A stretch of 64,000 nt of DNA from Parazoarcus communis SWub3 = DSM 12120 (GTDB taxonomy: Bacteria; Pseudomonadota; Gammaproteobacteria; Burkholderiales; Rhodocyclaceae): NCBI RefSeq assembly GCF_003226565.1, contig NZ_QKOE01000003.1, forward strand, positions 248,001-312,000, written 5' to 3'. Positions 6,255-21,717 of the stretch are shown in pieces. Below the pieces are notes generated by a model. The model was given only the letters and a program-made list of their open reading frames with translations, made no database searches and had not been told where the DNA came from. The position numbers and the translations under genes were made by a program. Position 1 is the first letter of the stretch; each line of letters opens with the position of its first letter.

Positions 6255-7408
6255 AGACGGCGCAGCCGGTCACAGGCGGCATCCAGCGTCGCCTCGTTCT
6301 TGGCGAAGCAGAAACGGATCACCCCCTCGTCGCGACCATCGGCAAAGAAGGCCGATACCGGAATCGCCGCGACACCGACCTCGCGGGTCAGCCAGTCGCA
6401 GAATTGGGTGTCAGGCAGCGTCGACAGCTTGCCGTAGCGGACCAGCTGGAAGTACGTCCCCGCCGACGGCAGCAACTCGAAACCGGAACCCGCCAGGCCG
6501 GCGCGGAAGTGATCACGCTTGGCCTGATAGAACGCGGCCAGGCCGAGATGACGTTGCGCATCCGCCATGTAGTCAGCCAATGCCAGCTGCACCGGCGTAT
6601 TGACGGTGAAGACGTTGAACTGATGTACCTTGCGGAACTCCGCCATCAGCGCCCGGGGCGCCACCACATAGCCCACCTTCCAGCCAGTGATGTGGTAGGT
6701 CTTGCCAAAGCTCGACACGATCACGCTGCGCTCGGCCAGTCCCGGATGTGACGCGCAGCTGCGATGAGGCACACCATCGAACACGATGTGTTCGTACACC
6801 TCGTCGGAAACCACCACGATTCCCGTTCCCGCGGTGAGCACCGCCAGCTGGTCGAGGTCCTCCTCCGACCACAGCGTCGCGGTCGGGTTGTGCGGGGAGT
6901 TGATCATGATCATCCGCGTACGCGGGCCGATTGCCGCCGCCACCGCCGACCAGTCCGGCCGGTAGTCGGGTGCGGTCAGCCCCATCCGCACCACCTTGCC
7001 GCCGGCCAGTTCGATGGCCGGACCATACGAGTCATACACCGGCTCGAACACGATCACCTCATCGCCCGGGTGCACCAGCGCAGCCACCGCGGTAAACAAG
7101 GCCTGCGTCGCCCCCGCCGTGATGGTGACCTCGTGCTCGACGTCGTAAAGCGTGCCATACAGCGCGGCGACCTTGTCGGCGACGGCCGCCCGCAGCGGCA
7201 GACAGCCGGCCATTGGCGCGTATTGATTGGCACCGGACTTCATCCAGTGATGAACGCGATCAAACAATTCAGGCTCGGCATTGAAGTCGGGAAAGCCCTG
7301 CGAGAGGTTGATCGCATCACACTCCTGAGCCAGCCGCGACATGACGGTGAAGATGGTCGTCCCGACATTGGGCAGGCGGGACACGACAGGGGCAGGAAAG
7401 TGCGGCAT
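6236..7408 (-). CDS. PLP-dependent aminotransferase, methionine/kynurenine aminotransferase type
   Basis: A class I/II aminotransferase of 390 residues. Start 7408 gives MPHFPAPVVSRLPNVGTTIF, the usual family N-terminus. Visible landmarks are NLSQGFPDF, ITAGATQALFTAV, NSPHNPTAT, VVSDEVYEHI (PLP-binding Asp and Tyr) and SSFGKTYHITGWKVG with the Schiff-base lysine. The pattern matches YbdL-like methionine aminotransferases, which interconvert methionine and 4-methylthio-2-oxobutanoate, and kynurenine aminotransferases. It is divergent from mtnA, so a role in methionine salvage is plausible but inferred. The last residues (RLGGCRA) are encoded within the right arm of the 162-bp inverted-repeat element, so the C-terminus may have been altered by its insertion. 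Confidence 0.87.
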   Translation of the reverse strand: MPHFPAPVVSRLPNVGTTIFTVMSRLAQECDAINLSQGFPDFNAEPELFDRVHHWMKSGANQYAPMAGCLPLRAAVADKVAALYGTLYDVEHEVTITAGATQALFTAVAALVHPGDEVIVFEPVYDSYGPAIELAGGKVVRMGLTAPDYRPDWSAVAAAIGPRTRMIMINSPHNPTATLWSEEDLDQLAVLTAGTGIVVVSDEVYEHIVFDGVPHRSCASHPGLAERSVIVSSFGKTYHITGWKVGYVVAPRALMAEFRKVHQFNVFTVNTPVQLALADYMADAQRHLGLAAFYQAKRDHFRAGLAGSGFELLPSAGTYFQLVRYGKLSTLPDTQFCDWLTREVGVAAIPVSAFFADGRDEGVIRFCFAKNEATLDAACDRLRRLGGCRA

Positions 7409-7628
7409 GACGACCTGAAGCGGAAAGAGACCCGGCACATTGTCGCAGAGCGCGGAAACTTGGCAAGTCGGTGACCGGCGGCACGAATGCGACTGCATGA
7501 CACTTGCGGGCCAGGCCAAGGACTGGCACATTCCCGACCTCAACTTGCCCTAGAGAGCAGGAGTATGGGCCAGGCCGATACCGCCGGCATTGTTGCCGCG
7601 GACGGACCCGGACCCTGAATCCACACCG

Positions 7629-8699
7629 ATGTTTGTACAACCCGTTCCAACGCTGTGCCGCGATGGCGACAGCGTGCTGATTCTCGACCAGACTCAACTG
7701 CCCTGGCGGCAGGTCCAGCTCCGGCTGAACGACCTGACTGCGGTCGCACACGCCATCCGCTCGATGCAGGTGCGCGGCGCCCCCCTCATTGGAGGCACTG
7801 CGGCCTACGGGGTCGCCCTGGCAATGGCCCATGGCGGCACGGACGACGCTGCACTGGCACACGCCCTGAACATGCTTGGCGCCACCCGTCCGACCGCGGT
7901 CAATCTTCACTGGGCTCTCGCGCGGATGTCGGCCCGCCTGCACCCCCTTCCACCCGCGCAACGCAGCCAGGCAGCCTGGACCGAAGCTGCGGCGATCTGC
8001 GCCGAGGACGCCACGACCTGTGGATCGATCGGCCAGCACGGACTGGCCCTGCTGCGGGCCCTGCCGACACCAGCAGGACGGCCTCTTCGGCTCATGACCC
8101 ATTGCAATGCCGGCTGGCTGGCCACACTGGGCGCCGGCACCGCACTGGCACCCGTGTATGCGGCCCAGGCGGTCGGGCTCGAGATCGAAGTGGTGGTCAG
8201 CGAAACCCGGCCACGCAACCAGGGGCTGCTGACCGCCTGGGAACTGCGCGAAGCCGGCATTCCGTACCAACTGATCGCCGACAATGCAGCGGGCTTGCTG
8301 ATTGCGCGCGGCGAGATCGACATTGTCATCACCGGCGCCGACCGCATTGCGGCCAATGGCGACACTGCCAACAAGGTGGGCACCTATCTGAAAGCGCTGG
8401 CCGCCAAGGCCGCAGGCATTCCCTTCCACATCGCGGCCCCCCGCTCGACCCTGGATCTAGACTGCCCGAACGGCGATGCCATTCCGATCGAGGATCGCGG
8501 CGCGGATGAGGTGTGCTCGATCATCGGCGCCGACGCCTCGGACGCCCCCATGACGCTACGCCTGGCGCCGCAACAGACGCGGGCATTCAACCCCGCCTTC
8601 GACGTGACCCGGGCCGGGCTGATCGACAGCATCATCACCGAACACGGCGTCTTCACACCGCAGCATCTCGGCCGCTTCTATGCGGGGGCACCGGCATGA
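7629..8699 (+). CDS. mtnA: S-methyl-5-thioribose-1-phosphate isomerase
   Basis: MtnA converts methylthioribose-1-phosphate to methylthioribulose-1-phosphate in recycling of methylthioadenosine. From ATG 7629 the protein is 356 residues, the usual size. Characteristic segments are QVRGAPLIGGTAAYG near residue 50, THCNAGWLATLGAGTALAPV with the catalytic Cys around residue 160, VSETRPRNQG, ITGADRIAANGDTANKVGTY with the catalytic Asp, and NPAFDVTRAGLI near the end. A longer frame begins at 7590, but MFVQPVPTL matches known starts better. The stop codon overlaps the start of the aldolase gene (ATGA), so both are made together. Confidence 0.94.
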   Translation: MFVQPVPTLCRDGDSVLILDQTQLPWRQVQLRLNDLTAVAHAIRSMQVRGAPLIGGTAAYGVALAMAHGGTDDAALAHALNMLGATRPTAVNLHWALARMSARLHPLPPAQRSQAAWTEAAAICAEDATTCGSIGQHGLALLRALPTPAGRPLRLMTHCNAGWLATLGAGTALAPVYAAQAVGLEIEVVVSETRPRNQGLLTAWELREAGIPYQLIADNAAGLLIARGEIDIVITGADRIAANGDTANKVGTYLKALAAKAAGIPFHIAAPRSTLDLDCPNGDAIPIEDRGADEVCSIIGADASDAPMTLRLAPQQTRAFNPAFDVTRAGLIDSIITEHGVFTPQHLGRFYAGAPA

Positions 8700-9352
8700 G
8701 TGTCAGCGAAGCCAGCCTGCGGGCCGAACTCCTCGCCACCTCGCGTGCGATGGGGAGTGCCGGTCTCAATGTCGGCACCTCCGGCAACGCCAGCGTGCGC
8801 TGGCATGGCGGTTTCCTGGTCACGCCGAGCGGCCTGGCGGCCGACGCCTGTACAAGTGGCGATATGGCCTGGATCGATGCCAGCGACCGGGCCCATGGGC
8901 CATTGGCACCCTCGTCGGAATGGATGCTGCATCGCGACATCTATGCAGCCCGGCCAGACGCAGGCGCCATCCTGCATGCGCACTCACCGTTTGCCACGGC
9001 GCTTGCCTGCCAGCGTATCGACATCCCCCCGTTCCATTACATGATCGCGCGCTTTGGCGGCCACGACATCCGCTGCTCACGCTACGCGACCTTCGGCACC
9101 CAGGCGCTGTCGGACGCCGCTGTGGCTGCACTGGCCGGGCGCAGCGCCTGCCTGCTGGCCAATCATGGCATGCTGGTCTTCGGCCGCGACCTGGCCCATG
9201 CTCTGGCCCAGGCTGTCGAGTTTGAAACCCTGTGCGCGCAGTACTGGCACACCCGCCAACTGGGGGACCCGGTCCTGTTGTCGACGGCAGAGATGGACGA
9301 GGTCATCGACCGCTTCCGCGACTATGGCCGACCGCGCGAGCTCGCAGACTGA
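8696..9352 (+). CDS. Class II (FucA-like) aldolase, candidate 5-(methylthio)ribulose-1-phosphate aldolase
   Basis: A 218-residue zinc-dependent class II aldolase/adducin protein. Metal and catalytic features are visible: GTSGNASVR, TPSGLAAD, SSEWMLH with the catalytic Glu, HAHSPFATA with two zinc-binding His, HYMIARFGG and LLANHGMLVFG with the third His. The stretches SSEWMLH, HYM and YATFGT follow L-fuculose-1-phosphate aldolase closely. The dehydratase MtnB, the other class II family member expected beside mtnA, has a different motif set. Its 4-nt overlap with mtnA resembles the DHAP shunt known from Rhodospirillum rubrum and some E. coli, where the aldolase makes DHAP and methylthioacetaldehyde. 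The specificity is inferred from context. Confidence 0.85.
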   Translation: MSVSEASLRAELLATSRAMGSAGLNVGTSGNASVRWHGGFLVTPSGLAADACTSGDMAWIDASDRAHGPLAPSSEWMLHRDIYAARPDAGAILHAHSPFATALACQRIDIPPFHYMIARFGGHDIRCSRYATFGTQALSDAAVAALAGRSACLLANHGMLVFGRDLAHALAQAVEFETLCAQYWHTRQLGDPVLLSTAEMDEVIDRFRDYGRPRELAD

Positions 9353-9389
9353 TGCGGTCGCAGCCTCCGGCAGTGGCGCAGCTGCCGAC

Positions 9390-11771
9390 ATGAGACGTCC
9401 TCCCTTGTCCTCGCTTGCCAGCCTGGCATGGCAGGCCATCCTGCCGCTGCTCGTGTTCGTGACGCTGTGGGGCGGCATCGCGCGCTTCGAGCGTGCCGCC
9501 TTCGACGCCGAGCAGTCGCAGAGCATGGCGCGCTTTCAGCAGACCGCCTCGCTGCAGATCGAACGCATCCGCCACGCGCTGCAATCCGGCACGACAGCCA
9601 ACGCACAGGCCAGCGTCGCCCAGTTGCTCGGCGAGCGGCGCGACGCGCGCAACGTCAGCATCGAGATTCTCGACCTTGGCGGTGCCCAACCGCGTCCGGT
9701 GTTCCGCGACGAAACCCTGCGCCCTGCGGCCATCCTCTACACCGAACAGATCAAGCTTGAACACCTGCACTGGCTGGTCGAGATCTCACCACTCCCCGGG
9801 CATTACTCGCTACTGCCCGGCCCCACCGTGCAGGCCTTGCGTTGGGGGGGGCCAGTAGTCGGCCTGCTGGGCGCGCTGATCATTGCCTTGCTGCAGTCCC
9901 GCAACCGCAACATCCGCCGCCAGGTGCTGCGTCAGACCGCAGCACTGGAGCGCATGAACCATCAGCTCGAGGCGAGCAACGCCGCGCTGCAACGCGAAGT
10001 CGCCCGGCGCGCCGACTCCGAACGCGAACTTCGCGCGACCACGGCGCTGCAGAAAGCCATTCTCGACGGCTCCGACTACGCCATCATCTCGACCGACATC
10101 CACGGCATGATCGAGCTGTTCAACCCGGCTGCCGAGCGCATCTTCGGCTGGCGCGCGGACGAGTTGATCGGCAGATCCACGCCGACCTTGCTCTACGCCG
10201 AGGAGGAGCTCGTACATGGCGTCATTGACCATGCTTCGGGATTTCCCGGCATCGAGAACGGCGAACGTCAACATGAGGCGGTGCACCTGCAGGAACTGAA
10301 CCTGCGACGCAAGGATGGCGAGTCCTTTCCCGCCACCCTGTCGGTGTCGCCCTTGCGTGATGAAACCGGCGCGATCCGTGGCCACCTCGGCATTGCCAGC
10401 GACATCGGCCAGCAAAAAGCGGCCGAGTCCCGCATCCGCTTCCTTGCACATTACGATGCACTGACCGAGCTGCCCAACCGCAATCATTTTGGCCAACGTC
10501 TGAACGAGGCCCTGCTCCGGTGCAAGGCCCAGGACGAGCAACTGGCCGTCCTGTTCATCGATCTCGACCGCTTCAAGTACGTCAACGACTCGCTCGGCCA
10601 TCAGGCCGGGGATCAGTTGCTGCAGGTGCTGTCCAAGCGCTTCATGGCCTGCGTGCGCAACGGTGACCTGGTTGCGCGTGTCGGCGGCGACGAATTCATC
10701 ATCCTGTTGTCGCCGCTGCGCGACCGCGACGAAATCGGCGAAGTGGCGGACCGGGTACTGGCCGCGCTGCGCCAGCCGGTGGATCTGCGCGGCCATCAAC
10801 TCACCGTGACGCCCAGCATCGGGATTGCGCTATACCCGGAACATGGCAGCGACGGCGAAACCCTGGTCAAGCACGCCGATGTGGCGATGTACAAGGCGAA
10901 GGAGGATGGCCGCAATCTCTACCGCTTCTTCGACCGCCAGATGTCGCTGCACATGTCGGAACGGCTGGCACTGGAGAGCGAACTGCGGCGGGCACTGGAG
11001 CGTAACGAATTCATTGTTTACTACCAGCCCCAGCTCGACGTGCATAGCGGCGAGATCACCGGCATGGAGGCCCTGCTGCGCTGGAACCACCCGGAACATG
11101 GGTTGGTGCCACCCGATCGCTTCATCCCCATCGCCGAAGACAGCGGCCTGATCCTGCCAATCGGCGCCTGGGTGCTACGCGCCGCCTGTGCCCAGGCTCG
11201 CACCTGGCGGGATTCGGGCCTGCTCGACGTACAGATGGCGGTCAATCTTTCAGCACGTCAGTTCGATCAGCAGGACTTGCCCGAACTGGTCGCCAGCGTG
11301 ATCGACGGCACCGGCCTGCCGCCGGATCGACTCGAGCTTGAGCTGACCGAAAGCCTGGTCATGCGCGACCCCGAGCGCAGCTCGGAGACACTCAGCCGAT
11401 GCAAGGCGCTCGGCTTGAAGATTGCAGTGGATGACTTCGGCACCGGTTACTCCAGCCTGGCCTACCTGCGCCGCTTTCCGATCGACCGGCTGAAGATCGA
11501 CCGCTCCTTCATCAAGGATGTCGTGGACGAGCCCGATGACGCCGCGATCGCTCAGACCATCATCGCCATGGCCCACAGCCTGCGCCTGACCGTCGTCGCC
11601 GAGGGCGTGGAGGACGAAGCCCAGTTGCGCCTGCTGCAACGCTGGGACTGCGACATCTACCAGGGCTTCCTGTCCAGTCGTCCTCAGCCGGCCGATGCCA
11701 TCACCTCGCTGCTGCTGGGGATGAAGGCGGCCCGGGTCAGCAGCCTGTCACCTCCTGCCAGCGTGTTCTGA
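9390..11771 (+). CDS. Membrane PAS-GGDEF-EAL protein (c-di-GMP synthesis and/or breakdown)
   Basis: About 793 residues from ATG 9390. A helix at about 10-28, a periplasmic stretch and a second helix at about 150-168 precede a coiled coil and a PAS domain (about 220-340). The GGDEF domain keeps an intact VGGDEF active site and an inhibitory RxxD site (RNGD) five residues upstream. The EAL domain retains MEALLRWNHPEHG, ELTESLVM, DDFGTGYSSLAYL and the EGVE motif, so a working phosphodiesterase is expected. Such proteins often use one activity mainly, and sequence cannot say which. I preferred 9390 to upstream in-frame ATGs because these would overlap the aldolase gene and add no conserved sequence. 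The gene ends 5 nt before the convergent reductase gene. Confidence 0.9.
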   Translation: MRRPPLSSLASLAWQAILPLLVFVTLWGGIARFERAAFDAEQSQSMARFQQTASLQIERIRHALQSGTTANAQASVAQLLGERRDARNVSIEILDLGGAQPRPVFRDETLRPAAILYTEQIKLEHLHWLVEISPLPGHYSLLPGPTVQALRWGGPVVGLLGALIIALLQSRNRNIRRQVLRQTAALERMNHQLEASNAALQREVARRADSERELRATTALQKAILDGSDYAIISTDIHGMIELFNPAAERIFGWRADELIGRSTPTLLYAEEELVHGVIDHASGFPGIENGERQHEAVHLQELNLRRKDGESFPATLSVSPLRDETGAIRGHLGIASDIGQQKAAESRIRFLAHYDALTELPNRNHFGQRLNEALLRCKAQDEQLAVLFIDLDRFKYVNDSLGHQAGDQLLQVLSKRFMACVRNGDLVARVGGDEFIILLSPLRDRDEIGEVADRVLAALRQPVDLRGHQLTVTPSIGIALYPEHGSDGETLVKHADVAMYKAKEDGRNLYRFFDRQMSLHMSERLALESELRRALERNEFIVYYQPQLDVHSGEITGMEALLRWNHPEHGLVPPDRFIPIAEDSGLILPIGAWVLRAACAQARTWRDSGLLDVQMAVNLSARQFDQQDLPELVASVIDGTGLPPDRLELELTESLVMRDPERSSETLSRCKALGLKIAVDDFGTGYSSLAYLRRFPIDRLKIDRSFIKDVVDEPDDAAIAQTIIAMAHSLRLTVVAEGVEDEAQLRLLQRWDCDIYQGFLSSRPQPADAITSLLLGMKAARVSSLSPPASVF

Positions 11772-11776
11772 CCGTT

Positions 11777-12646
11777 TCAGGGCGACGTCCGCTCCAGCAC
11801 CCGCAACAGGCTGGCGGTATCGTCCTGCCCCCAGCCACAGGCCATCAAAGCATTGAGCTGCTGCCAGACCTGGGCGGCAATCGGCAAGGGCAGGCCACGC
11901 ACACAGGCCTCGTGCATCAGGATGGCAAAATCCTTGTGATGCAGACGGGCCTGGATACCTGCGGAAAAATCGCGTTCGACCATGCGCTGTCCCATGATGT
12001 CGAGGGCCTTCGAGGCCGCCGATCCACCCATCAGTGCGTGACGCACCGCGGCCAGATCCACCCCATGCGCCGCCGCCAGCCGCATCGCCTCGGCCACCGC
12101 CTGGATCGCCGCAACCAGCACCATCTGGTTGCAAGCCTTGGCCACCTGGCCGGCCCCTGCCGGACCGACATGGACCGTACGCTTGCCCAGCACATCGAAC
12201 AGCGGCTGAACCCGCGCCAGATCTGCGGCCTCACCGCCGACCATGATCGCCAGCGTGGCATCCCTGGCGCCCTGCTCTCCACCGGAAACCGGCGCATCCA
12301 GCCAACCCACACCCCGCTGCAGATAGTGCGCAGCGAGTTGGCGCGCGGTCTCCGGCGCAATCGTGCTCATGTCGACATGAATGCACCCGGACGCGAAACC
12401 TGCAGCCAGTCCGTCAGACCCCAGCACCAGCGCCTCGACATCCGCACTGGCCGTGACGATGCTGATCACCACCTCGCTACGGGCTGCCAGCGCGGCCGGT
12501 GTCGCGCACGGCATCGCACCAGCCTCGACCAGCGCCGCAGCCGCAGCCGGCCGCCGGGCCCACACCGCCACTTCGTGTCCGGCTGCCAGCAGATGCCCGG
12601 CCATCGGCGCACCCATCACGCCCAGGCCAATGAAGCCGACCTTCAT
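11777..12646 (-). CDS. 2-hydroxy-3-oxopropionate reductase/3-hydroxyisobutyrate dehydrogenase family protein (copy 2)
   Basis: A beta-hydroxyacid dehydrogenase of 289 residues. The N-terminal Rossmann motif GFIGLGVMGAPMAGHLL binds NAD(P). The substrate motif DAPVSGGEQGARDATLAIMVGG and the catalytic-lysine segment GAGQVAKACNQMVL are intact. This signature covers tartronate semialdehyde reductase (GarR/GlxR), 3-hydroxyisobutyrate dehydrogenase and glyoxylate reductases, and sequence alone does not separate them. Its start overlaps the stop of a close paralogue just upstream by 4 nt, so the pair is a tandem duplication within one transcript. No glyoxylate carboligase or hydroxypyruvate isomerase gene is nearby to fix the pathway. 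Confidence 0.85.
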   Translation of the reverse strand: MKVGFIGLGVMGAPMAGHLLAAGHEVAVWARRPAAAAALVEAGAMPCATPAALAARSEVVISIVTASADVEALVLGSDGLAAGFASGCIHVDMSTIAPETARQLAAHYLQRGVGWLDAPVSGGEQGARDATLAIMVGGEAADLARVQPLFDVLGKRTVHVGPAGAGQVAKACNQMVLVAAIQAVAEAMRLAAAHGVDLAAVRHALMGGSAASKALDIMGQRMVERDFSAGIQARLHHKDFAILMHEACVRGLPLPIAAQVWQQLNALMACGWGQDDTASLLRVLERTSP

Positions 12647-13622: not shown

Positions 13623-14540
13623 ATGAACTACGCCCCCATCATCAAGGAAATCGGTCGCGGCGCCAAGGGTTCGCGCGCGCTCGACCGCGACGCCGCTGCC
13701 TCGGTTTTTGGTGACATGCTCGACCAGACCGTGCCCGGTATCGAACTGGGCGCCATCCTGATCGCACTGCGGGTCAAGAGCGAGTCGCTCGACGAACTGC
13801 TGGGCTTCAAGCGGGCGATGGATGCACGCTGCGCGCAGGTTGCCGTGCCAGCCGGCCCACGGTGCGTGGTGCTGCCAAGCTACAACGGCGCGCGCCGGCA
13901 GGCCAACCTGATGCCGCTGGTGGCCATGCTGCTGGCGCGCGAAGGCATTCCGGTGCTGATCCAGGGCCGCCACGATTTCGAAACCCGGGTCAGCCCCCTC
14001 GAGTTGCTCGCCGCACTCGACATCCAGCCTGCGCGTGACGCTGCGGCTGCCGGCGAACAGCTGGCGGAGCGACGCCTGGCCTGTATCGGAGTCGATCAAC
14101 TGCTGCCGGGGCTGGATGCCCTGCTGGCCCTGCGCCTGCGCATGGGCGTGCGCAACAGTGCGCACACCATGGCCAAGCTGCTGGACCCTTGCCACGGCCG
14201 TAGCGTTCGCGTGGTCGCGGTCACCCACCCCGAATACCTCGAACGCATGGACGCCTTCCTGCGTGTCGACGGGGGGCATTCGATGCTGCTGCGCGGGACC
14301 GAAGGCGAGATCTACGCCAACCCCCGACGTTGCCCGGAGATGAAGACCTATGCCAACGGCGAAGGCCGAATCGCCGTTGCAGGCGAGGAAGGCGGGGCCC
14401 CGCCACTGGCCGGACTGCCCGACGCCCCTTCGGTCGCGGACAACGCTGCGTTGATCCGCGCCATGCTTGCCGGCGAGCAGGCCATACCCGCCCCCATCCT
14501 GGCCCAGGTCGCCACGCTGGCCGAACTGGCGCGTGGCTGA
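13623..14540 (+). CDS. ybiB: DNA-binding protein YbiB/TrpD2 family (anthranilate phosphoribosyltransferase fold)
   Basis: A 305-residue protein with the two-domain fold of nucleoside phosphorylase class III / TrpD enzymes: a helical N-domain (IGRGAKGSRALDRDAAASVFGDML) and the alpha/beta domain (VVLPSYNGARRQANLMPLVAML, GVRNSAHTMAKLLDP, VTHPEYLERMDAFL, LLRGTEGEIYANPRR). E. coli YbiB, called TrpD2, binds nucleic acids non-specifically and lacks phosphoribosyltransferase activity; the same is assumed here. The reading frame runs into hupU, overlapping or nearly touching it, so YbiB is the first gene of the hydrogen-sensor transcript. A GATAATCC motif lies only 7 nt before the ATG, so an upstream promoter or a very short leader is possible. 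Confidence 0.88.
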   Translation: MNYAPIIKEIGRGAKGSRALDRDAAASVFGDMLDQTVPGIELGAILIALRVKSESLDELLGFKRAMDARCAQVAVPAGPRCVVLPSYNGARRQANLMPLVAMLLAREGIPVLIQGRHDFETRVSPLELLAALDIQPARDAAAAGEQLAERRLACIGVDQLLPGLDALLALRLRMGVRNSAHTMAKLLDPCHGRSVRVVAVTHPEYLERMDAFLRVDGGHSMLLRGTEGEIYANPRRCPEMKTYANGEGRIAVAGEEGGAPPLAGLPDAPSVADNAALIRAMLAGEQAIPAPILAQVATLAELARG

Positions 14541-14562: not shown

Positions 14563-15558
14563 ATGAATCTGGTCTGGCTCCAGTCCGGCGGCTGTGGTGG
14601 CTGCACGATGTCGATGCTGTGCTCAAGCTCGCGCGACCTTCTCGGCCTGCTGCGCAACGCCGGCATCCATGTGCTGTGGCATCCTTCGTTGTCGGAGCAG
14701 TCCGGCACCGAGGCCCTGGATGTCCTGCAAGCCTGCGCCGATGGCCGCATTCCGGTCGACCTGCTGTGCATCGAGGGTGCCATGCTGCGCGGCCCCAATG
14801 GCAGCGGCCGGTTCCACCTGCTTGCCGGCAGCGGCCGGCCGATGACCGAATGGGTTGCCGCGCTTGCGCGTCACGCCCGGCACACACTGGCAATCGGTTC
14901 ATGCGCCGCCTGGGGCGGTATCACTGCCGGCAGTTTCAACCCCACCGATGCCTGCGGCCTGCAGTACGAGGGCGACGTCCCCGGTGGCTTGCTGGGCGCA
15001 CACTATCGCTCGGCGTCCGGCATGCCGGTGATCAACGTCGCCGGCTGCCCCACCCATCCCGACTGGGTCACCGACACCCTGCTTGGACTGGCGCTCGACA
15101 GCCTGCACCACGCCGACCTGGATGCACTTGGCCGCCCACGCTTCTACGCTGACCAACTGGTGCATCACGGCTGCAGCCGCAATGAATTCTACGAGTTCAA
15201 GGCCAGCGCCGAGAAACCCTCCGACCTCGGCTGCATGATGGAACACATGGGTTGCAAGGGCACTCAGGCCCATGCCGACTGCAACACCCGGCCCTGGAAT
15301 GGCAGCGGCTCCTGTACCAGCGGCGGCTACGCCTGCATCTCCTGTACCGAACCGGGGTTCGAGGAGCCGGGTCACCCCTTTACCCAGACGCCCAAGCTGG
15401 CGGGCATTCCCATCGGTCTGCCCTCGGACATGCCCAAGGCCTGGTTCGTCGCGCTGGCCGCATTGTCCAAATCGGCGACGCCACAGCGTGTGCGTGACAA
15501 CGCGGTGGCCGACCATCCGGTCATCGCCCCGGCCATCCGCCGGACCGGACTCAAATGA
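14563..15558 (+). CDS. hupU: Regulatory (H2-sensing) [NiFe] hydrogenase small subunit
   Basis: Small subunit of a HupUV/HoxBC cytoplasmic hydrogen sensor, about 331 residues. It starts MNLVWLQSGGCGGCTMSML, with proximal cluster cysteines right at the N-terminus and no Tat signal peptide, the hallmark of sensor rather than energy-conserving hydrogenases. Further cluster ligands lie in AIGSCAAWGG, NVAGCPTHPDW, HHGCSRNEFYEF and the Cys-rich C-terminal half (GCMMEHMGCKG, CNTRPWNGSGSC, CISCTEPGF). I chose ATG 14563. A GTG at 14533 would overlap the ybiB stop by 8 nt and add ten residues, which is equally possible. It overlaps hupV by 4 nt (ATGA). Confidence 0.94.
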   Translation: MNLVWLQSGGCGGCTMSMLCSSSRDLLGLLRNAGIHVLWHPSLSEQSGTEALDVLQACADGRIPVDLLCIEGAMLRGPNGSGRFHLLAGSGRPMTEWVAALARHARHTLAIGSCAAWGGITAGSFNPTDACGLQYEGDVPGGLLGAHYRSASGMPVINVAGCPTHPDWVTDTLLGLALDSLHHADLDALGRPRFYADQLVHHGCSRNEFYEFKASAEKPSDLGCMMEHMGCKGTQAHADCNTRPWNGSGSCTSGGYACISCTEPGFEEPGHPFTQTPKLAGIPIGLPSDMPKAWFVALAALSKSATPQRVRDNAVADHPVIAPAIRRTGLK

Positions 15559-17009
15559 GCCGGCTGGTGCTCGGCCCCTTCAACCGGGTGGAAGGGGATC
15601 TGGAAGTCACCCTGGACATCGATGGCGGCCGGATCCGCTCGGCACGGGTCAACTCGCCGCTCTACCGCGGTTTCGAGCAGATTCTCGCGGGCAAGGATCC
15701 ACGCGACGCGCTGGTGTTCGTGCCACGTATCTGCGGCATCTGCTCGGTTTCGCAGTCCGCCGCCGCCGCCGCTGCGCTGCGCGACGCGATGGGCATCCGG
15801 CCACCGCCCAATGGCGAGCGCGCGGCCAGTCTGGTGCTGGCCACCGAGAACCTGGCCGATCATTTCACCCACTTCTACCTGTTCTTCATGGCAGACTTCG
15901 CCCGCGAAGCCTATGCCGGTCGTCGCTGGTTCGACGCGGCCCAGGCCCGCTTCAAGGCGGTCAAAGGCTCGGCTGCCGCCGACGCATTGCCGGCACGTGC
16001 CGCCTTCCTGCAGATAATGGGCCTGCTCGCCGGCAAATGGCCACATAGCCTGAGCCTGCAGCCGGGGGGCTCGGCACGCGCCATTTCGTCCGCCGACAAG
16101 ATTCGCCTGTTCGCCCTGCTCAGCGAGTTTCGCAGCTGGCTTGAACGCCGCTTGTTCGGCGACCGGCTGGAAGTCATCGCGGCACTCGATTCGGCGCAGG
16201 CGCTGGACAACTGGCAGGCTGCACGTGCCCCCGCCTCATCGGATTTCCGACTGTTTCTGGAGATCGCCGACGACCTGCGATTGCAGGACCTTGGCCGGGC
16301 AAGCGACCTGTTCATCAGCAATGGAGCCTACACCGTCGATCAGGCAGTCCTGTTCGTCCGTGGCCGCTGGCAGTTGGGCGAACAGCACGCCCGGCCCCTT
16401 GACCCGGCCAGCATTACCGAAGACGCGCACTCGGCGTGGATGGCAGACAGCCCGCCGCTGCACCCGCATCGCGGCCAGACCCTGCCCGACGCGGACAAGC
16501 CCGATGCCTACACCTGGTGTAAGGCCCCACGGCTGGACGGAGCCGTCGCCGAATGCGGCGCCCTGGCCCGCCAACTGGTTGATGGCCACCCCCTGATGCG
16601 CGACCTGGCCGTGGCAAGCGGCGGCAATGTCCGCAACCGCGTCATCGCCCGCCTGCTTGAGTTTGCCCGCGTGATACCGGCGATGGAGCAATGGATTCGC
16701 GAGATCCAGCCTGGAGAACCGTTCTGCACCCAGGGCACGATTCCGGACGAGGCCGAAAGCTGCGGCCTGGTGGAGGCCGCGCGAGGCGCCCTGGGGCACT
16801 GGCTGGTGATCCGCAAGGGTCGCATCGCCAATTACCAGATCATCGCGCCCACCACCTGGAACTTCTCGCCCCGCGACGCCGGCGGCACGCCGGGACCGCT
16901 GGAGCAAGCCCTGGCAGGCATCGCAATCGGCGAACACGAGCGCGTACCTCTGGCCGTGCAGCACGTGGTCAGATCCTTCGATCCGTGCATGGTATGTACG
17001 GTGCATTGA
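15555..17009 (+). CDS. hupV: Regulatory (H2-sensing) [NiFe] hydrogenase large subunit
   Basis: A 484-residue large subunit that carries the NiFe site. Nickel ligands are RICGICSVSQ (C60, C63) and DPCMVCTVH (C478, C481). The chain stops exactly at this terminal His, so it lacks the C-terminal extension that a maturation protease removes in other hydrogenases. That is diagnostic of HupV/HoxC sensors. The gas-channel positions are Ile62 (CGIC) and Phe110 (THFYLFF), the same residues and numbers as in Ralstonia eutropha HoxC, where the bulky pair narrows the channel and gives oxygen tolerance. HupUV reports H2 to the HupT kinase encoded two genes downstream. No structural hydrogenase genes lie in the window. 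Confidence 0.96.
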   Translation: MSRLVLGPFNRVEGDLEVTLDIDGGRIRSARVNSPLYRGFEQILAGKDPRDALVFVPRICGICSVSQSAAAAAALRDAMGIRPPPNGERAASLVLATENLADHFTHFYLFFMADFAREAYAGRRWFDAAQARFKAVKGSAAADALPARAAFLQIMGLLAGKWPHSLSLQPGGSARAISSADKIRLFALLSEFRSWLERRLFGDRLEVIAALDSAQALDNWQAARAPASSDFRLFLEIADDLRLQDLGRASDLFISNGAYTVDQAVLFVRGRWQLGEQHARPLDPASITEDAHSAWMADSPPLHPHRGQTLPDADKPDAYTWCKAPRLDGAVAECGALARQLVDGHPLMRDLAVASGGNVRNRVIARLLEFARVIPAMEQWIREIQPGEPFCTQGTIPDEAESCGLVEAARGALGHWLVIRKGRIANYQIIAPTTWNFSPRDAGGTPGPLEQALAGIAIGEHERVPLAVQHVVRSFDPCMVCTVH

Positions 17010-17147
17010 GCCATCCCGGCAGACCCCGTCGCAGCCTGTCACCAGGCTGGAAACCCGCATGAACGCTGGTCACACACCCAAGCTGCGTGTAGCCTTTCAG
17101 TATTCCATGACCACACGCGGGATTTGGCACCCGCCACCCTCTCGACC

Positions 17148-18671
17148 ATGAAGACAAGACGGTGGGCCATCATCGGCGCAGCGCTGCTACTGGTGACCGA
17201 TGTCATGCTGATCGATGTGCTGCGCAAGGACCGTGCTGCTGCGCTTGAGCACGGGCGGGAAACCGTGGATGGCATTGCGACCATCATCCTGCATCGTACC
17301 GACAGCCTGGTCGACATGCTCGACCGTACCCTGTCCGGCATCGGCGAGGCGGTCAGCGCCTACGGCAGGCCTCCCACCGACGATGATCGCTACCTGCACC
17401 GCCTGCTGATGCGCCGCCACGCGATCACGCCGGAACTCGCCTGGCTCGCCATGACCGATACCGAGGGCATGACGCGCAGCAGTTCGCGCTCTTTTCCGGC
17501 GCCCCGCATCGACACCTCGGACCGGGAGTATGTGATTCCGCAACTGCAGCACTGGGATCATGGCTTTCACATCGGCCAGCCCATCATCTCGCGCTCGGCC
17601 GGCGCCGAGTTCGTCATTCCGGTCAGTCGCAGACTCGTCAATGACGGCGGGGTGTTCTCGGGGGTCGTCATCGCCGGCCTACGCAGCGAGTTCCTGCAGA
17701 CCCTGGTCGACGACCCACGCCCCCCGGAGGGCATGACCATCGGGCTGTACCGCCGCGACGGCGCCGCGCTTGCCTGTCTGCCCACCCGGGCCGACTGCCC
17801 TGACGCGCCGGCAACCCTGATGCAGATCGTGGCGCCCAGCCAAGCCCAGGGGCCCGCACGCTTTGAGCGCGTCGCGGACCACCTGATACTCAGCACCGAG
17901 CATGGCGTCAGTGCAGTGCAGGCATCAGACCATCACCCGCTTTTTGTCGTGGTGGATTATCCCGAACGCCATCTGCTCGCCCAATGGAATGCCAACCTGC
18001 CGATATTCGTCCTGATCGCCCTCGGCGGCAATGTCGCCCTGGCGATACTGGGCGTTTTCGGGTTTCGCCAGCTCGCACGGCGCCGCGAAGCGATGGAAGC
18101 GCTGGCCGAATCGAACCGCCTGCTGGAAGCACGGGTGCGCGAACGTACCGAGGCGCTGGCAAAACTGGCCAACACCGACGTACTGACCGGTGCGCATAAT
18201 CGCCGCTGGCTCATGGAGGAAGGCGAGCGGCTGTTCGCGCTCGCTCGCCGCCACCACCATCCGCTGGCCTTGATGATTCTGGACGCAGACCACTTCAAAT
18301 CGATCAATGATCGCTACGGCCACGCAAGCGGTGATGCGGTACTGCGCACCCTGGCTGCCACACCGGCCACCGTGCTGCGTACCACCGACCTGTTCGCCCG
18401 CCTGGGTGGCGAAGAGTTCGGCGTGATCCTGCCTGCCACGGGCAGGGAGGGAGCCATCGGCCTGGGCGAGCGCCTGCTGAGCGCCATGCGCGACGCCGTG
18501 ACAGAGCACGACGGTCAGCGCCTGCGCTTCACCGTCTCGATTGGCATTGCCGTACTGCAAGCCGACGATCCCAGCCTGGAGGCCCTGCTGCATCGCGCCG
18601 ACCTCGCGCTCTACCAGGCCAAGGCCAGTGGCCGCGATCGACTGGCACTGACCGACTCGACTCCCTCATGA
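17148..18671 (+). CDS. Membrane diguanylate cyclase with periplasmic sensor domain, inside the hydrogen-sensor operon
   Basis: A 507-residue protein from ATG 17148 (MKTRRWAIIGAALLLVTDVM). One membrane helix (about 6-24), a periplasmic region of about 250 residues that looks like a double Cache/PDC domain (SREYVIPQLQHW-like region, VIPVSRRLVNDGGVFSGVVIAGL) and a second helix (about 286-306) lead through a coiled coil into a GGDEF domain. The active site is intact (RLGGEEF), and an RxxD inhibitory site (RTTD) sits five residues upstream, so c-di-GMP synthesis with product inhibition is expected. It follows hupV by 138 nt and overlaps hupT by 4 nt (ATGA). Its coupling to hydrogen sensing is inferred from that position only. 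Confidence 0.9.
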   Translation: MKTRRWAIIGAALLLVTDVMLIDVLRKDRAAALEHGRETVDGIATIILHRTDSLVDMLDRTLSGIGEAVSAYGRPPTDDDRYLHRLLMRRHAITPELAWLAMTDTEGMTRSSSRSFPAPRIDTSDREYVIPQLQHWDHGFHIGQPIISRSAGAEFVIPVSRRLVNDGGVFSGVVIAGLRSEFLQTLVDDPRPPEGMTIGLYRRDGAALACLPTRADCPDAPATLMQIVAPSQAQGPARFERVADHLILSTEHGVSAVQASDHHPLFVVVDYPERHLLAQWNANLPIFVLIALGGNVALAILGVFGFRQLARRREAMEALAESNRLLEARVRERTEALAKLANTDVLTGAHNRRWLMEEGERLFALARRHHHPLALMILDADHFKSINDRYGHASGDAVLRTLAATPATVLRTTDLFARLGGEEFGVILPATGREGAIGLGERLLSAMRDAVTEHDGQRLRFTVSIGIAVLQADDPSLEALLHRADLALYQAKASGRDRLALTDSTPS

Positions 18672-20023
18672 CAGCCTCCGACAAGAACCGAGCGACGCTG
18701 CAGCAAACCGGCCACCCCGGAGAGCTGTTCGGCGTCGGAGAGGAAATGTGGATGGATGTCATCCACAAGATGGATGAGGTCTATTCCGACCTGCTGCAGT
18801 ACGAAGTCGCGCTGGAGGAGAAGAACGCCAAGCTGGAGGAATCCCAGCAATTCATCCTGTCGGTTCTCACCTCGATGTCCGACATCCTGGTGGTTTGCGG
18901 CCGCAACGGCATGATCGAAGAGGTCAACCGCTCACTGGAAGACTTTACCGGTCGCAATCTCGCCAGCCTGCGCGGCACCCTGGTGTTCGACCTGTTTGCC
19001 GACGAAGCGTCGCGCGCCCAGGCCCGCCAACTGTTTGCCCGCTTCGGCGATCAGGGCGTCCATGACTGCGAGCTGCCGCTACTGGCCAAGGATGGCAGGG
19101 CGGTACCGGTGTCGATCAACTGCACGCCCCGCTTCAATGCGGTGGGCAAATCCATGGGCATGGTCGTGACCGGCCGGCCGGTGGGGGAATTGCGCCGAGC
19201 CTATCAGGCCCTGCGTCAGGCGCACGACGACCTCAAACGCACCCAGCAGCAGTTGCTGCACGCCGAAAAGATGGCTTCGCTCGGTCGCCTGGTCGCCGGC
19301 GTTGCCCACGAACTGAACAACCCCATCAGCTTCATCCTGGGCAATGTGCATGCCTTGAAGCGCTACGCCGAACGACTGGGCCGCTATCTGAATGCCATTC
19401 ATGCCGGCGTACCGCAAAGCCGGATCGAGGCGCTTCGCGCCGAATTGCGCATCGACCGCCTGCTGGGCGACCTGCCGCCCCTGATCGAAGGCACCATCGA
19501 AGGCGCGGAACGCACGCGCGACATCGTCGATGGCCTGAAACGCTTTTCTGCCATCGATCGCGACGAACAGCAACGCTTCAACCTGACCGAAGTCATTGAA
19601 CGTGCGGTACGCTGGGTCAGCAAGGGCACACGCGACAACTTCCGCATCCGACTCGAGCTGCCACCGCAGATCCCCATCGTTGGCTCACCCGGACAGATGC
19701 AGCAAGTGATGATGAATCTGGTGCAGAACGCCTGGGATGCGGTCGCGCAATGCGCCGCCCCCACACTCGACATCGTCGCCAACATCCGCAATGACCATGC
19801 GCAAGTGCGGTTTCACGACAACGGCCCGGGTGTGGATGACAAACATCTGGCCCACGTTTTCGACCCCTTCTTCACCACCAAGGCAGTGGGCCAGGGCACC
19901 GGACTGGGGCTGGCGATCAGCTACGGCATCATCGAGCGCCACCACGGGCGCATCACCGTCAGCAACCACCCCGACGGTGGTGCGGTGTTCGTCATTGACC
20001 TGCCCTTGGCCACCGGAACCTGA
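18668..20023 (+). CDS. hupT: PAS sensor histidine kinase of the hydrogen sensor (HupT/HoxJ type)
   Basis: A soluble kinase of 451 residues. The N-terminal segment MDVIHKMDEVYSDLLQYEV and the helix EEKNAKLEESQQFI resemble HupT/HoxJ proteins, which bind HupUV. A PAS domain (about 65-175), the H box VAHELNNPISFILGN, the N box NLVQNAWDAV and G boxes HDNGPGVDD and GTGLGLAISYGI follow. No membrane helix is present, consistent with sensing through the cytoplasmic hydrogenase. In known systems HupT phosphorylates HupR/HoxA and hydrogen relieves this. No obvious HupR/HoxA gene lies in the window. The stop is directly against the convergent flavin reductase gene, with no spacer. Confidence 0.92.
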   Translation: MTASDKNRATLQQTGHPGELFGVGEEMWMDVIHKMDEVYSDLLQYEVALEEKNAKLEESQQFILSVLTSMSDILVVCGRNGMIEEVNRSLEDFTGRNLASLRGTLVFDLFADEASRAQARQLFARFGDQGVHDCELPLLAKDGRAVPVSINCTPRFNAVGKSMGMVVTGRPVGELRRAYQALRQAHDDLKRTQQQLLHAEKMASLGRLVAGVAHELNNPISFILGNVHALKRYAERLGRYLNAIHAGVPQSRIEALRAELRIDRLLGDLPPLIEGTIEGAERTRDIVDGLKRFSAIDRDEQQRFNLTEVIERAVRWVSKGTRDNFRIRLELPPQIPIVGSPGQMQQVMMNLVQNAWDAVAQCAAPTLDIVANIRNDHAQVRFHDNGPGVDDKHLAHVFDPFFTTKAVGQGTGLGLAISYGIIERHHGRITVSNHPDGGAVFVIDLPLATGT

Positions 20024-20521
20024 TCAGGGCGTCAGGTGGCGATATGCGCCGCCGAAGTAGATCAGCGGATCCCCCGGATTGCGGTCGAAGCGCTCGACCT
20101 CACCAATGAACAGAACATGGTCGCCGCCGGGGTGACGCACCTTGTTGCGACACTCGAAACGGGCCACGCAACCATCCAGCAAGGGGGCACCGCCGAGACC
20201 GTGATCGAAGCCCAGTCCGGCGAAACGATCCCCCTGGCGGCTGGCAAAACGTTGCGATACGGCCTCCTGATCGGCAGCAAGCACGTTGATCGCGTAGTAT
20301 TCGCTCGCCTCGAACAGCGCCCGGCTGGGTAGATCGTTTGACAGGCTCCAGACGATCAACGGCGGGTCGAGCGAAACCGAGTTGAACGAATTGACTGTCA
20401 ACCCGATCGGATCGCCCGCGGGCGTACGCATGGTCACCACGGTAATACCAGTGGCGAACATGCCGAGGGCGTTACGGAAATTGCGCGGAAAATCCTCTGC
20501 GGCAGGGGTTTGCTGGGACAT
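20024..20521 (-). CDS. Flavin reductase family protein (FMN-binding split barrel)
   Basis: From ATG 20521 the product is 165 residues and has the flavin-reductase-like domain: NFRNALGMFATGITVVTMRT, GLTVNSFNSVSLDPPLIVWSL, YYAINVLAADQEAVSQRFAS and HVLFIGEVERF. Members supply reduced flavin to two-component monooxygenases or reduce FMN/FAD with NAD(P)H. No oxygenase component is encoded alongside, so the partner is unknown. The N-terminal extension of the longer open frame (to 20656) lacks conserved features and would cross the divergent mutY promoter region. A GATAATCCGCC motif is centred about 55 nt upstream of the start on the coding strand. Confidence 0.87.
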   Translation of the reverse strand: MSQQTPAAEDFPRNFRNALGMFATGITVVTMRTPAGDPIGLTVNSFNSVSLDPPLIVWSLSNDLPSRALFEASEYYAINVLAADQEAVSQRFASRQGDRFAGLGFDHGLGGAPLLDGCVARFECRNKVRHPGGDHVLFIGEVERFDRNPGDPLIYFGGAYRHLTP

Positions 20522-20664
20522 GGGGCGACTCGGACACGGCACGACGGGGTACCGTAAGAATTTGATCAGGCGGCGGATTATCGCCGCCAACGAGGCATGC
20601 GTCGAGTCTGGCGAGCACGACGCACGGGTAATGGTTGGCGAGAATACCGGAAACAAGCGAACAG

Positions 20665-21717
20665 ATGAGTGATTTTGCCCGAAGACTGATCGACTGGCAT
20701 CGAGACCACGGCCGCCACGACCTGCCCTGGCAGGGCAGCAGGGATCCCTACCGGATCTGGCTGTCGGAAATCATGCTGCAACAGACCCAGGTCAGCAGCG
20801 TCATTCCGTACTACACCCGCTTTCTCGAGCGCTTCCCCGACGTCGCCACGCTGGCCGCCTCTCCGGTGGAAGACGTGATGGCGCTCTGGAGCGGCCTGGG
20901 CTATTACGCCCGTGCGCGCAACCTGCACCGCGCCGCACAGCAAGTCATGCAGGCGCATGACGGTCGCTTTCCCGACTGCAGCGCAAGCCTGATCACCCTG
21001 CCCGGTATCGGCCGCTCGACGGCCGCCGCCATCGCGGCCTTTTCCAGCGGTGAGCGTGTCGCCATCCTGGACGGCAATGTCAAGCGGGTACTGTGCAGAG
21101 TGTTCGGCATCGAGGGTTTTCCCGGTGAAAAGGCTGTCGAAAACCGGCTCTGGACGCTGGCCGAATCACTGCTGCCCGACACCGAGCTGGGCACCTACAC
21201 TCAGGCCCAGATGGATCTGGGCGCCACCGTGTGCACCCGCGGCAAGCCCGCCTGCATGCGCTGCCCGATGGCCGAAGCCTGCGTGGCCGCACGTAGCGGA
21301 CGCACCCGCGAGCTGCCCGCTGCCCGGCCCAGAAAAACCATTCCCCGGCGCAGTACCCAGTTGGCGGTGGTCGTCTGCAACGGCAGGGTGTTGGTCGAGC
21401 GCCGCCCGCCGTCAGGCATCTGGGGCGGCCTGCTTGCGCTGCCCGAACTGCCGGGCACCGGCACGACACTGCCGGCCTGGGCCATCGGTGAGTGGAGTGC
21501 CGGCCAGACGCCGGTCGCCCTTCCACCGCTGACCCACACCTTCACCCACTTCGTCCTTGACATCCAGCCCTGGCGAATCGATCTGACGCATCCGCCGGCC
21601 CAACTTGCCGAACCCGCCCACCAGTGGCTGGCCCTGGATCAGCTCGCCGACGCCGCCCTGCCGACACCAATCAGGCAGATCCTGACCCGCCTGCAGCATC
21701 CGGATCTGTTCGACTGA
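20665..21717 (+). CDS. mutY: Adenine DNA glycosylase
   Basis: MutY removes adenine mispaired with 8-oxoguanine. The protein has 350 residues from ATG 20665 (MSDFARRLIDWHRDHGRHDLPWQ). The catalytic helix-hairpin-helix region LPGIGRSTAAAIAAF and the Asp of VAILDGNVKRVL are present. The [4Fe-4S] loop has the exact spacing C-x6-C-x2-C-x5-C (CTRGKPACMRCPMAEAC). A C-terminal NUDIX-like domain (VERRPPSGIWGGLLALPEL) recognises the 8-oxoguanine. Length matches the family. It is divergent from the flavin reductase and precedes trxC by about 100 nt. Confidence 0.96.
   Translation: MSDFARRLIDWHRDHGRHDLPWQGSRDPYRIWLSEIMLQQTQVSSVIPYYTRFLERFPDVATLAASPVEDVMALWSGLGYYARARNLHRAAQQVMQAHDGRFPDCSASLITLPGIGRSTAAAIAAFSSGERVAILDGNVKRVLCRVFGIEGFPGEKAVENRLWTLAESLLPDTELGTYTQAQMDLGATVCTRGKPACMRCPMAEACVAARSGRTRELPAARPRKTIPRRSTQLAVVVCNGRVLVERRPPSGIWGGLLALPELPGTGTTLPAWAIGEWSAGQTPVALPPLTHTFTHFVLDIQPWRIDLTHPPAQLAEPAHQWLALDQLADAALPTPIRQILTRLQHPDLFD

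Follow-up and report, generated by a model that had tools for sequence, protein, structure and literature searches.

In Rhodobacter capsulatus, the kinase HupT phosphorylates the regulator HupR when H2 is absent, and unphosphorylated HupR activates the hydrogenase genes when H2 is present (PMC5133592), a logic that is also described for HoxJ/HoxA (PMC10073562). The HydDB classification designates group 2b of the [NiFe] hydrogenases as histidine kinase-linked and group 2c as "Diguanylate cyclase-linked (putative)", the latter being proposed to sense H2 and to act via production of cyclic di-GMP (c-di-GMP) (PMC5037454); this proposal is repeated in PMC4853749, where the L2 consensus of group 2c is printed as SFDxCLVCTVH. 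In Dechloromonas aromatica RCB, the hydrogenase region harbors a GGDEF gene (VIMSS581372; 523 amino acids) following hypF and an ABC gene, and it ends with hoxA-hupU-hupV-hupT; the section on hydrogenases in that report draws no regulatory conclusion on VIMSS581372 (PMC2907700). Here, we describe a locus of Parazoarcus communis SWub3 (DSM 12120; family Rhodocyclaceae) in which a gene encoding a membrane diguanylate cyclase (DGC) is positioned between the genes for the H2 sensor, hupUV, and the gene for its kinase, hupT. The locus lies on a stretch of 64,000 nucleotides (nt), positions 248,001 to 312,000 of contig NZ_QKOE01000003.1, which was analyzed as a whole and is referred to as the window. 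We propose, with a probability of roughly 0.55, that it represents a classical H2-sensing system into which a single DGC gene was inserted and then kept, its product being co-expressed with the sensor and gated by a signal of its own. The open literature searched yielded no description of an operon in which this DGC gene separates hupV from hupT.

Organization of the hupUV-DGC-hupT locus

The four genes are arranged on the + strand in the order hupU, hupV, DGC, and hupT:

14563..15558, + strand: hupU, small subunit of an H2-sensing [NiFe] hydrogenase (Pfam Oxidored_q6 and NiFe_hyd_SSU_C; start codon ATG at 14563)
15555..17009, + strand: hupV, large subunit (Pfam NiFeSe_Hases; orthologs in the family loci 53 to 77% identical)
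17124..18671, + strand: membrane dCache-GGDEF diguanylate cyclase (Pfam GGDEF, 149.8 bits; match to 3lif_A; invariant residues)
18668..20023, + strand: hupT, PAS histidine kinase (Pfam PAS_4, HisKA, and HATPase_c)

HupU contains CGGC, with no export signal seen by eye at its N terminus, and its orthologs, which are 61 to 85% identical, are encoded next to hupV in the family loci. HupV harbors the motifs RICGICSVSQ and HFYLF and terminates in SFDPCMVCTVH without a C-terminal extension, while an HELNNP box and ATPase motifs are present in HupT. The ATGA at 18668-18671 comprises both the stop codon of the DGC gene and the start codon of hupT; the placement of a GGDEF gene between hupUV and hupT with a 4-nt overlap, as claimed in an earlier note on this DNA, is therefore confirmed. 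The gap between hupV and the DGC gene amounts to 114 nt when counted from a TTG start, and the sequence ahead of the DGC gene is poorly conserved. The arrangement is neither a chance open reading frame (ORF) nor an assembly join, as it recurs in four other genomes (see below).

Features of the diguanylate cyclase

The protein is predicted by sequence criteria to be an active diguanylate cyclase. Its active-site motif, GGEEF, occupies residues 428 to 432, and the RxxD motif of the inhibitory site is present as RTTD at residues 419 to 422; R419, D422, and G428 to F432 are invariant across 14 aligned DGC sequences. The DGC of locus L142 was left out of alignment A2 but is included in the DGC trees. 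The prior description of a complete, predicted active cyclase with GGEEF and RxxD is thus borne out, both sites being intact. The first start codon is the TTG at 17124, and an in-frame ATG at 17148 represents an alternative.

A match to 3lif_A (E value of 6.3e-12), a sensor domain of known structure that is presumably derived from Rhodopseudomonas, was obtained with the part of the DGC predicted to be extracytoplasmic. The Pfam profile dCache_1 scores below threshold in the DGC of the window (24.7 bits versus a cut-off of 45) and above it in the relative encoded at locus L039 (54.3 bits). An AlphaFold model was obtained with a mean predicted local distance difference test (pLDDT) score of 83.9 and a predicted template modeling (pTM) score of 0.55; because the best 50 of its 1,338 Foldseek matches were all GGDEF-containing structures, this comparison was uninformative as regards the sensor domain. 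Two cysteines at residues 218 and 225 (window positions 17775-17798) are invariant in 14 of the 14 aligned sequences, and their location in the predicted extracytoplasmic domain makes a disulfide or a cofactor site possible.

The apparent possession of its own sensor domain suggests that the DGC responds to a ligand other than the H2 signal. Pfam identified no receiver domain in the DGC, and BLASTP detected no similarity between the DGC and HupT; the same was true of the PAS-bearing DGC of locus L038 and HupT, although both carry a PAS domain according to Pfam. In view of these two negative results and of the predicted sensor domain, the sequence reveals no direct route by which HupUV or HupT would act on the DGC, and the sole link between H2 and the DGC that it supports is co-expression, with gating presumably being separate.

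Recurrence of the gene order

Family loci were read by tblastn with reference proteins, as extended shadow ORFs in this GC-rich DNA had made greedy gene calls unreliable. HupV was detected at an E value of ≤1e-60 in 71 of the 150 family genomes. Of 69 family loci with a HupV of >50% identity, 18 have hupT no more than 120 nt after hupV, 6 have it at 120 to 900 nt, and 20 have it further away; it was not found in the remaining 25, some of which are cut by contig ends, under a strict identity threshold. The DGC gene was located between hupV and hupT in four of these loci, namely, those of the window, L038, L039, and L040, with several of the other 65 being cut by contig ends. The same order was observed in a fifth genome, G161 (L142). 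The four relatives sharing the order comprise all four examined genomes of genus g27, two of which are Azoarcus; HupV was detected in each, and the whole DGC at an E value of ≤1e-90 in two, because the DGCs of genomes G130 and G161 are more divergent and carry an extra PAS domain. Occurrence next to hupUV in this strain only, which the earlier note would have taken against its idea, is contradicted by this recurrence in four genomes of another genus.

When the best 80 named HupV loci were inspected (a set which excludes two of the four g27 genomes and in which hupT was found in 31 loci at the same threshold), the DGC gene was observed between hupV and hupT only in Azoarcus indigens DSM 12121 and Azoarcus sp. 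TTM-91. Adjacent hupV and hupT genes are present in Aromatoleum evansii, an Azoarcus metagenome-assembled genome (MAG), and Pseudothauera rhizosphaerae, whose HupV proteins are 71 to 74% identical to that of the window. In searches of class and order genomes in which at most 5 to 8 candidates were scored per genome, the N-terminal part of the DGC was detected at an E value of ≤1e-30 in 1 of 369 class genomes (the genome of the window itself) and in 3 of 399 order genomes, all belonging to this family. The hupUV-DGC-hupT arrangement is a real, recurrent, and lineage-limited variant of the HupUV/HupT operon.

Certain loci displayed additional peculiarities. At L039 (genome G086), a 147-bp unit is repeated in 4.4 copies with 98% matches between hupU and hupV (7343-7982). 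In L102 (genome G015), oriented with hupV on the + strand, the hupT frame terminates prematurely, and a transposase-like ORF comes next (9450-11926). This transposase was named by eye, as were HupK, HypE, and the proteases of L261 to L276, of which that of L265 scored 22.1 bits, slightly below the cut-off of 23.

History of the locus

The downstream border of the hup cluster site is formed by a conserved gene pair, flavR and mutY (20024..21717), which is also present in L039, L040, L041, L042, L140, L141, L250, L251, and L162. The recognized genes of L039 and L040 run hypF-hypD-hupR-hupU-hupV-DGC-hupT, followed by flavR and mutY; in the window, hupUV-DGC-hupT-flavR-mutY has been kept, and hupR and the hyp genes are found on another contig. 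Within the genus of the window, represented by five genomes, the DGC was detected in three, HupV in four, and flavR in all five. In the congeners G067 and G150 the site reads hypF-DGC-flavR-mutY without hupUV or hupT, while the hyp genes, hupR, and a DGC-free hupUV-hupT are located elsewhere (L253 and L254; L252). Genome G115 displays hypF-flavR-mutY and genome G180 hypB-hypF-hypD, flavR, and mutY, in both cases without the DGC gene.

The seven DGCs located at hup or hypF sites were separated from eight homologs, which have no tested hydrogenase genes in the fetched stretch, by a split supported at 94/91 (95/92 when L153, a mis-framed sequence with six stops, was included). The DGC of the window was recovered as sister to those of G067 and G150 (97/96), and the HupU proteins of the five hupUV-DGC-hupT loci clustered together (87/88). 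The ratio of nonsynonymous to synonymous substitution rates (dN/dS) of the DGC gene between G067 and G150 was 0.157, compared with 0.094 for hypF and 0.199 for mutY, and that between G130 and G161 was 0.259; as judged from such ratios, the DGC of the two congeners G067 and G150 is shown to be under purifying selection.

The remaining neighbors of the hup genes in the window are as follows:

13623..14540, + strand: ybiB (NCBIfam NF006005, above the cut-off)
20024-20656, - strand: flavin reductase gene, flavR (Pfam Flavin_Reduct)
20635-21717, + strand: mutY (Pfam HhH-GPD and NUDIX_4)

As ybiB and hupU are separated by 22 nt in the genome of the window, read-through may occur, and the sensor operon may be driven here by an unrelated promoter.

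Components of classical hydrogenase control

At an E value of ≤1e-60, a single HupV is encoded in the 5.0-Mb genome, which comprises 231 contigs. Its contig C111 carries a [NiFe]-hydrogenase large subunit gene and a cytochrome b gene and, further along, genes for a HycI-type protease, HypF, HypD, HypB, and a REC-sigma54-HTH_8 regulator, while a further NiFe-hydrogenase-like gene is located on contig C11. The C111 regulator is taken to be HupR, as it is 88 and 86% identical to the regulators encoded upstream of hupU in L039 and L040, respectively. The parts of classical HupUV/HupT/HupR regulation are, therefore, present in this genome.

Neither a structural hydrogenase gene nor hupR was found within the window. 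An NtrC-type match at 2828-4081 was rejected as HupR, being only 36% identical to it and located beside a PilS-type kinase, and a second NtrC-type match (62393-62737) is short. The earlier note had reported this absence correctly, yet both are present elsewhere in the genome, and the absence is, therefore, an effect of the window borders. Its suggestion that H2 sensing might feed into c-di-GMP "instead of" classical hydrogenase gene control is contradicted by the presence of hupR, the hyp genes, and a hydrogenase on C111, and equally by L039 and L040, in which hupR is the recognized gene that precedes hupU, within a cluster that also contains the DGC gene.

Abundance of GGDEF genes at hup loci

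The genome of the window contains 64 GGDEF matches at an E value of ≤1e-10, corresponding to approximately one per 78 kb. Around hupUV in 67 family loci (1.066 Mb; the above 69 loci minus L103 and L104, a set also used for the HupV tree and the L2 motif), 12 GGDEF domains were observed versus 13.6 expected, the observed count having been obtained with a profile built for this analysis and the expected value from the density in the genome of the window. These 12 domains are distributed over 11 loci and 7 of 37 genera. No enrichment near hupUV was thus found in the 67 loci, which implies that GGDEF genes do not generally accumulate at hupUV; the conserved DGC looks like one lineage-specific event, followed by retention.

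Several GGDEF genes found within or next to the hup clusters of other genomes encode proteins of a different architecture and were not treated as counterparts of the DGC:

L041:4469-5449 (genome G143): PAS-GGDEF
L094:11448-13892 (genome G053): REC-PAS-GGDEF-EAL
L196, downstream of hupV: sensor-PAS-GGDEF
L202, downstream of hupV: GGDEF gene (by eye)

A GGDEF motif match in L102 was rejected: inspection of the locus revealed no GGDEF gene, and the profile likewise gave no match. In the window itself, a PAS-GGDEF-EAL type protein is encoded upstream of the hup genes (9054-11771, + strand).

A second HupUV-like group

Sixteen weaker HupV matches from 15 genomes each belong to a second HupUV-like pair, 33 to 42% identical to HupV of the window. 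All 16 large subunits end in CLVC[TA]VH, and 7 of the 16 in SFDxCLVCTVH; HupV of the window and its orthologs carry SFDPCMVCTVH in 66 of 67 cases and SFDPCMACTVH in the other. Downstream of the second-group pairs a protease-like gene is often present (by eye), and four of the five loci analyzed with Pfam encode a PAS kinase after the pair, while L265 (genome G037), whose large subunit carries the printed group 2c L2 motif, encodes a PAS-GGDEF protein (L265:10290-11435). Its residues 14 to 200 are 46% identical over 187 columns (E value of 1e-48) to the PAS histidine kinase encoded at the same place in L269 (genome G025; L269:6795-8267). Across 297 family genomes, this input module was best matched in G037 itself and in G025 (E value of 6e-44; residues 13 to 196); at an E value of ≤1e-15 it was detected in 68 genomes, the next best match (7e-26) starting at residue 53 and a few weak ones at residues 17 to 34. 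Comparison of G037 with G025 thus points to a natural swap of a kinase output for a cyclase output on a common coil-PAS input. By its sequence, the shared input of L265 is what one would expect to see in a true H2-to-c-di-GMP device, and the DGC of the window is predicted to be without it.

Proposed role of the cyclase

According to the explanation that we favor, one membrane DGC gene entered the space separating hupV from hupT, probably on a single occasion, in the common ancestor of the unit of the window and those of the Azoarcus-type genomes and was kept after its entry. As the DGC would be translated with HupT from one message, its amount is expected to follow the H2-sensor operon, while its activity would be governed by the extracytoplasmic dCache-type domain that it carries itself. 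HupUV-HupT would act on HupR in the usual way, HupR being phosphorylated without H2 and activating the hydrogenase genes in its unphosphorylated form with H2, and any link from H2 to c-di-GMP would arise via co-expression and not from a direct signal.

A number of observations weigh against this explanation. The HupV tree places the window beside G130 (98/95), in conflict with the DGC tree, the HupT tree leaves the window unplaced, and HupV of the congeners G067 and G115 falls in a clade other than that of the window; given such discordant trees, exchange inside the hupUV-DGC-hupT unit is possible. The two support values that speak for a single recruitment (94/91 and 87/88) do not reach the starred level of the tool, and the DGCs of G130 and G161, with their divergence and extra PAS domain, failed the threshold of ≤1e-90. 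Furthermore, the background comparison combines two different GGDEF profiles with the density of one genome, and the transcription and enzyme activity of the DGC, as well as its response to a ligand, are predictions from sequence.

Alternatively, the DGC gene may have come to reside in the operon by chance, being expressed there and functionally unrelated to H2, which we regard as possible, if somewhat doubtful. The density of GGDEF genes, their background-level number around hupUV, and the presence of other-architecture GGDEF proteins in or at the hup clusters of G143, G053, and two gammaproteobacterial MAGs are all compatible with such a chance association, as are the GGDEF gene inside the D. 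aromatica hydrogenase region (PMC2907700) and the persistence of the DGC gene in G067 and G150 at a site without hupUV and hupT. Conversely, the unit is intact in five genomes, in three of which (those of the window, G130, and G161) no hupR or hyp gene is present in the fetched stretch, and the DGC is absent from the G115 and G180 site along with hupUV and hupT. Were the DGC unrelated to H2, the locus would illustrate that, at approximately one GGDEF gene per 78 kb, operon neighborhood alone is weak evidence for a signaling link.

It appears improbable that the H2 signal perceived by HupUV is relayed to c-di-GMP by direct membrane contact of this DGC with HupUV or HupT. Such contact would fit the location of the DGC gene, which is flanked by the sensor and kinase genes in five genomes from two genera, its 4-nt overlap with hupT, and the GGDEF output borne by a kinase input module beside the HupUV-like pair of L265 in the same family, and a link from H2 to c-di-GMP has been proposed in print for group 2c (PMC5037454, PMC4853749). 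However, the DGC harbors neither a HupT-like part nor a receiver domain and appears to possess its own sensor domain, it is under apparent purifying selection in G067 and G150 without adjacent hupUV or hupT (though hupUV is present elsewhere in these genomes), and the L2 motif of HupV in the window is of the kinase-linked type and not that of group 2c. Least probable, although the kinase-to-GGDEF swap beside the HupUV-like pair of G037 indicates that connections of this kind can evolve within the family, is a two-output sensor in which HupUV would control the hydrogenase genes via HupT/HupR and also the DGC, so that H2 and an extracytoplasmic cue would be merged into one c-di-GMP decision, for example, to settle at sites that offer H2.

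Should the DGC respond to H2, or be produced only along with the H2 sensor, the supply of H2 would be coupled to decisions on biofilm formation or motility in Azoarcus-type bacteria, and culturable strains, A. indigens among them, would offer a means to test the unproven idea of H2-to-c-di-GMP signaling.

Comparison with known systems

The locus most closely resembles the group 2b systems, HupTUV/HupR of R. capsulatus and HoxBC-HoxJ-HoxA of Cupriavidus necator, with which it shares an extension-free sensor pair, a PAS kinase, and an NtrC-type regulator, hydrogenase and hyp genes being likewise present in the genome. The sensor pair retains its active-site cysteine motifs (RICGIC, DPCMVC, and CGGC, in agreement with Pfam), the large subunit ends at DPCMVCTVH and carries RICGIC and HFYLF, which we take to mark the Ile and Phe gas-channel positions, the adjacent PAS kinase possesses its H-box and ATPase motifs with the DGC gene intervening, and the NtrC-type regulator and the hydrogenase target are encoded on C111. 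It differs from group 2b in the DGC gene between sensor and kinase and in the separation of the unit from hupR and the hyp genes.

With group 2c of HydDB, the locus shares hydrogenase-like sensor genes adjoining a DGC gene, but HupV of the window carries SFDPCMVCTVH in place of SFDxCLVCTVH, and a kinase is present in the unit. VIMSS581372 of D. aromatica, likened here by place and length, is also a GGDEF gene of similar length in a hydrogenase region with hoxA-hupU-hupV-hupT; it is not located between hupV and hupT. DGC homologs in the same family lie away from the tested hydrogenase genes, an extra PAS domain being present where Pfam was applied (L144). As in other dCache-GGDEF cyclases, the DGC of the window is a predicted membrane protein with an extracytoplasmic Cache-type domain and a GGDEF output, and it is unusual in its genomic place only.

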